From positions 1,544,321 to 1,608,320 of the forward strand of contig NZ_CP012200.1 of the NCBI RefSeq assembly GCF_001484685.1: 64,000 nucleotides of DNA, given 5' to 3'. The notes beneath the pieces were generated by a model. The model ran no database searches. It had not been told where the DNA came from and saw only the letters and a list, made by a program, of their open reading frames with translations. How positions within the stretch are numbered: the stretch's first letter is position 1; every line of letters starts with the position of its first letter. The position numbers and the translations under genes are program-made. Shown in pieces: positions 27,534 through 51,783 of the stretch. Source of the stretch: Thermococcus sp. 2319x1. Lineage in GTDB: Archaea > Methanobacteriota_B > Thermococci > Thermococcales > Thermococcaceae.

Positions 27534-27821
27534 TCAAAATCTGGAAACGGTCTCAACTTCAGCGCTTTCAACGTTTTCCACTTGAGTAAATGCTTCTGCA
27601 ACTTCGTCGAAGGAGTATCCTTCAGCATCTTTTCCAAGCACATAAACCTTGAGGGCAACTAAACCAAATGCGATTGGCTCTCTGTCAATCTTGGAGATTC
27701 CATATTTGCCCCCAAATTTCTCCTCGAGTGTCTTTCTGATTGCTGCTTCTAATTCATCAAGGTTTACATCTGGATCGGTTGGCATAACCCTAATAACTCC
27801 TACCAGATTGAAATCGCTCAT
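27534..27821 (-). CDS. ef1b: Translation elongation factor EF-1 beta
   Basis: A 95-residue archaeal aEF-1beta, the nucleotide exchange factor for aEF-1alpha. Signature regions are VGVIRVMPTDPDVNLDELE, EPIAFGLVALKVYVLG and ENVESAEVETVSRF. The start is ATG 27821, six bases behind GAGGTG; the in-frame GTG at 27830 overlaps that ribosome site. It lies 10 bases downstream of a Zn-ribbon gene, and the two form a translation-related operon. Confidence 0.93.
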   Translation of the reverse strand: MSDFNLVGVIRVMPTDPDVNLDELEAAIRKTLEEKFGGKYGISKIDREPIAFGLVALKVYVLGKDAEGYSFDEVAEAFTQVENVESAEVETVSRF

Positions 27822-27831
27822 CTTCTTCACC

Positions 27832-28005
27832 TCAAGGTCCTTCCCATCCGCATTTGGGGCACTTGTAGGTTACCCCAAGGACACGACAGCTTTCACATCT
27901 CCATATAACTTCTTCCCCACAGTTTGGGCATATGAAGTGGGTAGCGTGCTCTCTTGGCGTTATCTCTTTTCCACATGATGTACACACGGGAATTGTCTCG
28001 GCCAT
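27832..28005 (-). CDS. Small Zn-ribbon RNA-binding protein (COG2888 type)
   Basis: A 57-residue protein with four Cys pairs: CTSCG, CPNCG, CESC and CPKCG, forming two zinc ribbons. This matches the archaeal COG2888 family, predicted RNA-binding proteins linked to translation. A very strong ribosome site, TAAGGAGGTGGT, precedes the ATG at 28005. The TATA box TTTATAAATAGG lies at about 28067-28078 on the minus strand. Conserved pairing with EF-1beta supports a role at the ribosome. Confidence 0.88.
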
Positions 28006-28087
28006 TTCAAACCACCTCCTTAGAAATGAGGTTTTTATTATCGTGACTCCTAACGCAATAAAGGAAGCCTATTTATAAAACTTTCGA

Positions 28088-28145
28088 GGGGTCAGACCAT
28101 GCGAGTCTCCTCATCCTTCGGTCGAAATCTCCCTCATCATCCCTA
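28088..28145 (-). ncRNA. Box C/D sRNA guiding 2'-O-methylation of 16S rRNA
   Basis: On the minus strand: a short closing stem AGGG...CCCCT, box C ATGATGA (28134-28140), an internal C'-like AGGATGA preceded by a D'-like TCGA or CCGA, and box D CTGA (28092-28095). The 11 bases GACTCGCATGG next to the base preceding box D are the exact complement of CCATGCGAGTC, a highly conserved stretch near the 5' end of archaeal 16S rRNA (from memory). By the N+5 rule the target is the U of CCAU. I could not place the target of the other guide. A TATA box sits at the right distance upstream. Confidence 0.8.
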
Positions 28146-28162
28146 ACAAAAATAAAAGAGAG

Positions 28163-28174
28163 GGCTTATAAACC
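28163..28174 (-). promoter_or_regulatory. TATA box for the C/D sRNA
   Basis: The minus strand reads GGTTTATAAGCC. Its centre is about 25 bases upstream of the first base of the sRNA terminal stem. It overlaps the stop codon of the upstream 99-residue gene. Confidence 0.6.
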
Positions 28175-28465
28175 TTCCCCAAAAGCTAAAAATCGTGCAA
28201 ATTTCTGTTTGTATGCCAACACTTCCCTTATTTGCTTTTCATCCACACTCTCTGAGACGCTGATCTGCTTGTAAAGCATTTCAAGTTCTTTTAGTGCTCT
28301 TTCAAGTTCCATCTCTTTGTCTTTATAGCTTCTATTGGAACTCTTTATCTTGGCCAAAAGTTTGCCCCTCAGAAACGGCAACACCTCAAACGGCCGACCC
28401 ATATAGGCCCAGTATATACCTTCCCTTAAAATTTCACCTAGAATTTCAATTTCAGAATAGTCCAC
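28166..28465 (-). CDS. Hypothetical small helical protein
   Basis: A 99-residue charged, helical protein with no recognised family. A coiled-coil-like region (KDKEMELERALKELEMLYKQI) occupies the middle. A GTG start at 28465 follows only a weak ribosome site. The 3' end hosts the promoter of the downstream sRNA. It could be a small conserved Thermococcales protein; I cannot assign a role. Confidence 0.55.
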   Translation of the reverse strand: MDYSEIEILGEILREGIYWAYMGRPFEVLPFLRGKLLAKIKSSNRSYKDKEMELERALKELEMLYKQISVSESVDEKQIREVLAYKQKFARFLAFGEGL

Positions 28466-42570: not shown

Positions 42571-42895
42571 GGTGAGGGGGCAGGGACTGTCGGGTATTAA
42601 ACCCGAGGAAGTTCCGCCCACCGCACCGGGACCGCGGTGCCGCAAGGCACCTCCCGGAAGGGAGGGCAACGGCGCAGAAACGACACGCCCTTCGGGAGAT
42701 GTGGATGAAAGCGGTGAAGGTTCCCGGCGACGGGAGCCGAGTTAACCCGCAGACAATCCCGGGGGGAACGGTGAAACGGCCGTCCCGCGGGGTGCAAGGC
42801 CGAGAGAGGGGCAATGAGTTCCCGGTGTGAGCCCCGTGGTAGGCCGCTCAGTCGAATGTCCCTTACTACAGAAGGCGGGCTATAGCCCCCTCACC
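42571..42895 (+). ncRNA. rnpB: RNase P RNA
   Basis: The catalytic RNA of RNase P, which trims the 5' leader of pre-tRNA. Stem P1 is formed by GGTGAGGGG at the 5' end and CCCCTCACC at the 3' end. The conserved CR-I region GAGGAAGTTCCGCCCA and the 3' conserved ACAGAAGGCGGGCTAT are present, and the core is G+C-rich as expected for a hyperthermophile. A TATA (CTTTATAATT) at 42541-42550 predicts a start at about 42571. The last 5 bases overlap the stop region of the convergent EamA gene. Confidence 0.95.
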
Positions 42896-51708: not shown

Positions 51709-51783
51709 GAAGGGACGATGAGGAGAAAGCACCTCCTCTGAGACCGGCGTGAGTGCTGAGACGCCCACGGTCTGAGTCCCTTC
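51709..51783 (+). ncRNA. Candidate structured RNA: three-way junction with kink-turn elements
   Basis: An 8-bp perfect closing stem (GAAGGGAC at 51709-51716, GTCCCTTC at 51776-51783) encloses two hairpins. The first is GAGGAG/CTCCTC with a 7-base loop. The second is AGACC-GGCGT/ACGCC-CAC-GGTCT. The second loop reads GAGTGCTGAG, like the kink-loops bound by L7Ae, and the base has GATGA opposite CTGA, a C/D-like kink-turn. It lies directly after the methyltransferase stop and has no clear promoter of its own, so it may be processed from the mRNA or end it. Confidence 0.45.

Follow-up and report, generated by a model that had tools for sequence, protein, structure and literature searches.

In archaeal box C/D sRNAs the C/D and C'/D' box pairs form a K-turn and a K-loop, which bind L7Ae and then Nop5 and fibrillarin. 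Families of this class listed in Rfam, such as snoPyro_CD (RF00095), sR28 (RF01136), sR43 (RF01128) and sR14 (RF01145), have the same box layout, size and spacing as the sRNA described here and differ from it in their guides. Some double guides address 16S sites that are distant in sequence and close in structure, and these have been proposed to act as folding chaperones (PMC4644070). A recent review stressed that guide sequences evolve at an accelerated pace (PMC7994747), which makes a guide pair that is constant across six genera, with one of its members recurring in a second phylum, a good test case.

The sRNA gene lies in the window, a 64-kb stretch of the Thermococcus sp. 2319x1 genome. 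An initial annotation, made from the letters alone, had placed a box C/D sRNA with its own promoter at 28088-28174, and both elements fall inside this interval. It had also suggested alignment to known Pyrococcus sR families, but the sRNA belongs to none of those in Rfam: at 28092-28140 no family reached its gathering score, and only sub-threshold matches driven by the boxes were obtained. The four families named above aligned weakly along the full length of the sRNA and scored 18.5-25 bits, the best being sR28 (25.0 bits versus a gathering score of 39), with snoPyro_CD at 18.5 versus 45; sR1 (RF01152) gave 13.6 bits against a cut-off of 45. Likewise, none of 15 homologous loci reached any Rfam family. 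The window also contains a second C/D box sRNA at 51713-51777 on the plus strand, which is assigned to sR43 with 73 bits, and the archaeal RNase P RNA gene at 42572-42894 on the plus strand (RF00373, 208 bits).

A conserved box C/D sRNA gene in Thermococcaceae

The sRNA extends over 49 nt of the minus strand, from box C (ATGATGA) through box D (CTGA), at positions 28140-28092. Read along this strand the order is ...GGTTTATAAGCCCTCTCTTTTATTTTTGTTA GGG ATGATGA GGGAGATTTCGA CCGA AGG ATGAGGA GACTCGCATGGT CTGA CCCC.... Box C (28134-28140) was claimed to be perfect and does fit RUGAUGA. It is followed, on the same strand, by a 12-nt D' guide (28122-28133), box D' (CCGA, 28118-28121; family consensus CNGA), the K-loop spacer AGG (28115-28117), which is invariably 3 nt long across the family, box C' (ATGAGGA, 28108-28114; family consensus RTGANGA), a 12-nt D guide (28096-28107) and box D (28092-28095). 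The GGG at 28141-28143 and the CCC at 28089-28091 can pair as the two arms of a terminal stem, and the GG and CC flanks are conserved in homologs. The body from GGG through CTGA measures 52 nt (28092-28143), and the mature RNA probably ends close to 28088 and 28147. Terminal C and D boxes bordered by a stem, together with internal C' and D' boxes, are the hallmarks of archaeal C/D sRNAs. The class assignment of the initial annotation is borne out, as boxes, guides and spacing are all present and are kept across the family.

A strict C/D pattern, requiring both box pairs and guides of 10-13 nt, matched the 64-kb window once, at 28092-28140 on the minus strand, and gave no match in 200 Markov-shuffled windows. 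Folding of the sRNA alone was uninformative (z = 0.41), as expected for the C/D class.

Searching with the exact pattern recovered the sRNA from 83 of 94 Thermococcaceae genomes, including 71 of the 74 good ones, and from all six genera. Allowing three mismatches added two genomes to give 85 of 94. The gene is present in a single copy per genome and the distance from TGATGA to CTGA is always 48 nt. At the same tolerance it was absent from 21 genomes of other families in the class, and a control with the pattern read backwards returned no matches. In 60 distinct loci, alignment columns within the sRNA carried 1.74 bits on average versus 0.23-0.45 in the flanks, with values of 2.0 in box D, 1.99 in the D guide core and 1.81 in the D' core. 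Both guides are conserved at the same ten positions, N+2 to N+11, and drift at N+1 and N+12. This confinement of conservation to the boxes, the guides and the TATA element in 85 of the 94 genomes strongly and independently supports the C/D sRNA reading. The gene is a genuine one for an archaeal guide RNA; it is well conserved and, within a known class, essentially ordinary.

Variation within the boxes was also observed. Two genomes of the largest genus (G069 and G030) carry TGATGT in box C instead of TGATGA with both guides intact, possibly altering the strength of the K-turn. The second base of D' and the fifth base of C' partly covary, being C-G in 19 of 30 distinct cores; the remainder are A-A (4), C-T (3), T-G (2), T-C (1) and T-A (1). 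This pattern hints at pairing constraints in the K-loop.

The T. kodakarensis homolog is located at 254608-254655, on the plus strand, of genome G036, which we equated with KOD1 via the 16S coordinates given in PMC9014305. This position falls between Tko-sR07 (116468) and Tko-sR14 (279865), which points to Tko-sR08 to 13 as the probable range for the homolog; it has probably been catalogued in the Tko-sR set (Jager 2014 PMC4247193; PMC9014305). It does not appear in the table of circularised sRNAs.

Promoter and gene neighbourhood

Upstream of box C, at 28163-28174 on the minus strand, lies a promoter-like element (GGTTTATAAGCC) with the TATA box TTTATAAG at 28172-28165. The upstream gene is a 99-aa ORF (28166-28465, minus strand), and its TAA stop codon (28168-28166) is contained in the TATA box, in agreement with the overlap noted initially. 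In the 60 distinct loci the TATA position stands out as an information peak at a nearly fixed distance upstream of the sRNA, and a TATA-like element was found in every one of the six genera. The claim of a private promoter is therefore supported, and this promoter would drive transcription of the sRNA. TATA-like motifs were reported for only ∼20% of archaeal C/D sRNAs in a 2017 survey, as cited in a review (PMC7994747), which makes the arrangement a minority one rather than a new one. The 99-aa ORF had no Pfam match. It is conserved across genera at about 37-92% identity, mostly immediately upstream of the sRNA, and by sequence represents an uncharacterised conserved family.

Downstream of the sRNA, on the same strand, are the genes for a Zn-ribbon protein (HVO_2753_ZBP, 27832-28005) and for EF-1beta (EF1_GNE domain, 27534-27830). 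A second TATA-like element (TTTTATAAAT, 28071-28080, minus strand) is situated between the sRNA and these genes and is probably the promoter of their operon. The position just upstream of a Zn-ribbon/EF-1beta translation operon was thus described correctly for this genome, but it is not a conserved arrangement. Judged by shared downstream sequence, the operon follows the sRNA in part of the genus only, so the adjacency should not be taken as a sign of a functional link to EF-1beta. The downstream neighbour varies both between genera and within them: a KOD1-like genome (L020) has a convergent gene at this place, and another genome (L016) has what is presumably a TtuA-like gene.

Two readings other than a free guide RNA were considered. 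In the first, the element would be a 5'-UTR K-turn through which L7Ae regulates the downstream operon; it precedes the Zn-ribbon start by ∼85 nt in the same orientation, and L7Ae-bound K-turns in 5' UTRs have been discussed for T. kodakarensis (PMC4247193). We consider this very improbable and rejected it, given the separate TATA-like element in between, the changing downstream neighbours and the conservation of both guides, something a K-turn switch does not require. Still less probable, to the point of being negligible, is a chance assembly or decaying copy, in which box-like motifs happen to adjoin a coincidental 16S match. The imperfect C' and D' boxes would fit such an origin, but the shuffled windows contained no architecture of this kind, and the constancy of length and guides over 85 genomes refutes it.

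Predicted targets in the 5' domain of 16S rRNA

We compared the D guide with the 16S rRNA of the same genome (L002). A 12-nt duplex was found at 48-59 (GCCATGCGAGTC), in which 11 pairs are Watson-Crick and N+1 is a U-G wobble. The duplex energy was −21.7 kcal/mol versus −14.2 kcal/mol at the next site in either the 16S or the 23S rRNA, and the probability that a guide matches either rRNA exactly over 10 nt by chance is ∼0.4%. The target strand reads GCCAUGCGAGUC and places an A-U pair at N+5, with U52 (aligned with E. coli U56) as the nucleotide to be modified. The D guide therefore shows what is required of a guide: 10-12 nt of rRNA complementarity next to its box, including a Watson-Crick pair at N+5. 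This upholds both the 16S 5' domain as the proposed target region and the assignment of N+5 to the U of CCAU. The location 'near position 45' was slightly off, since U52 at N+5 sets the target region to 48-59. On this sequence evidence the sRNA is very probably a guide for a predicted 2'-O-methylation of 16S U52. In the proposed mechanism, its K-turn and K-loop would bind L7Ae and subsequently Nop5 and fibrillarin, the D guide would anneal to 48-59 in the pre-rRNA, and fibrillarin would methylate the 2'-OH of U52.

The initial annotation left the target of the second guide to be searched for. Five genera have GGAGATTTCG as the D' core from N+2 to N+11, and the sixth has GGAAGTTTCG. When the rRNAs of 11 genomes were scored jointly, the best D' site was 16S 353-362 (CGAAACCUCC), with a joint score of 20.0 compared with about 15-15.75 at the next site. 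The core forms 9 of 10 base pairs there, and a single A-C mismatch is present in every genome, at N+7 or N+8 depending on the lineage variant. Each variant is one G-to-A transition away from GGAGGTTTCG, the perfect complement of 353-362, and this fully complementary guide was found in none of the 94 genomes. Among 5000 permuted guides, 72 equalled the joint score and 4 did so while also mapping near helix 5 (h5), a window chosen after the match had been seen. By duplex energy in four genomes, 16S 353 ranked first in two and second in one, and lay outside the top four in the present genome, where 23S 2078, with a bulge, was better. The search thus produced a best joint site that is mismatched, and is weakest in the genome at hand. 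Its N+5 nucleotide is A356, corresponding to E. coli A364. With moderate confidence, we regard 353-362 as the probable D' target and A356 as the site predicted from it; the D' guide would most likely anneal to the segment that follows the second h5 strand on its 3' side and may direct a methyl group to A356.

A single-function guide has to be weighed against this assignment. The D guide alone would act, on U52, and the D' guide would serve RNP symmetry or a target outside those examined, for example an mRNA or a stable RNA of another kind. Guides without rRNA targets have been described (PMC4644070), the D' guide has no perfect match in rRNA or tRNA, and in this genome its most favourable duplex lies elsewhere than at 16S 353. 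Among tRNAs no convincing site emerged, the best score being 18.5 for a pairing that included G-U pairs and one mismatch, and exact genome matches to the D' complement were restricted to two loci beyond the gene itself, neither with a tRNA. A mere spacer, however, would not need ten D' positions nearly as conserved as those of the D guide, and the two D' variants converge on one rRNA site. We hold the single-function reading to be a substantial but minority possibility.

Comparison with guides in other archaea

The relation of the two predicted sites in the folded rRNA was derived from the Rfam archaeal 16S structure, with brackets matched by hand. Positions 48-50 pair with 349-351 and 52-54 with 346-348, so that the D guide spans the 5' strand of h5, in which U52 pairs with A348. 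A348 is five nucleotides from 353, the segments 49-58 and 353-362 flank h5, and the candidate D' site comprises the linker 3' of the other strand of h5 and the start of h15. One sRNP carrying both guides could contact the h5/h15 junction from its two sides ahead of folding. A bridging, chaperone-type double guide is a possible reading of this layout, although the D' pairing is mismatched.

The U52 guide also occurs outside the family. Scanning 84,980 species genomes for box C, the D guide and box D yielded six loci in Thermoproteota besides those in Thermococcaceae, and scattered bacterial matches that resemble chance. All six have a C/D-like layout with the identical ten-nucleotide D guide core ACTCGCATGG before box D. 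In three loci of the Pyrobaculum group (L075, L078 and L105) the D' guides match 16S at about 29-41, unlike the Thermococcaceae D' guide. In the other three (L086, L088 and L107) they match the 5' end at 4-15, the own 16S being available for L088 but not for L086 and L107. Different 5'-domain partners thus accompany the U52 guide, which may have been shared by common descent with guide exchange or have arisen by convergence.

A more ambitious proposal joins these observations. The family would be a bridging guide throughout, with D on the 5' strand of h5 and, on the h5-h15 junction, a D' deliberately weakened by the one A-C mismatch that each major lineage retains at N+7 or N+8, coupling U52 methylation to timed folding of the 5' domain, and the same U52 guide would have been recombined with other 5'-domain partners in Thermoproteota. 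We advance this as a speculation that is unlikely to hold.

For a guide RNA that is found in nearly every Thermococcaceae genome yet is absent from Rfam, the analysis provides 16S U52 as a firmly predicted target and A356 as a probable additional one. It offers a test case for why some 16S methylations persist, and for the bridging hypothesis. The sRNA is well supported here and of modest interest, and it may already be catalogued in T. kodakarensis.

Two described guides may be compared with it in target or in arrangement. S. acidocaldarius sR1, whose D guide reportedly targets 16S U52 (Omer et al.), belongs to the same class and would share the target nucleotide; it comes from a different phylum and is likened to the present sRNA by target alone. 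Among the papers searched, no text had U52 and sR1 together. The closest precedent for the paired sites is N. equitans sR15/sR17 (PMC4644070). The Thermococcaceae sRNA differs from that system in its mismatched D' duplex, which covers the h5-h15 linker and h15 instead of the second strand of the same helix, and would resemble it in having two guides that bind sites ∼300 nt apart in sequence and adjacent in secondary structure.
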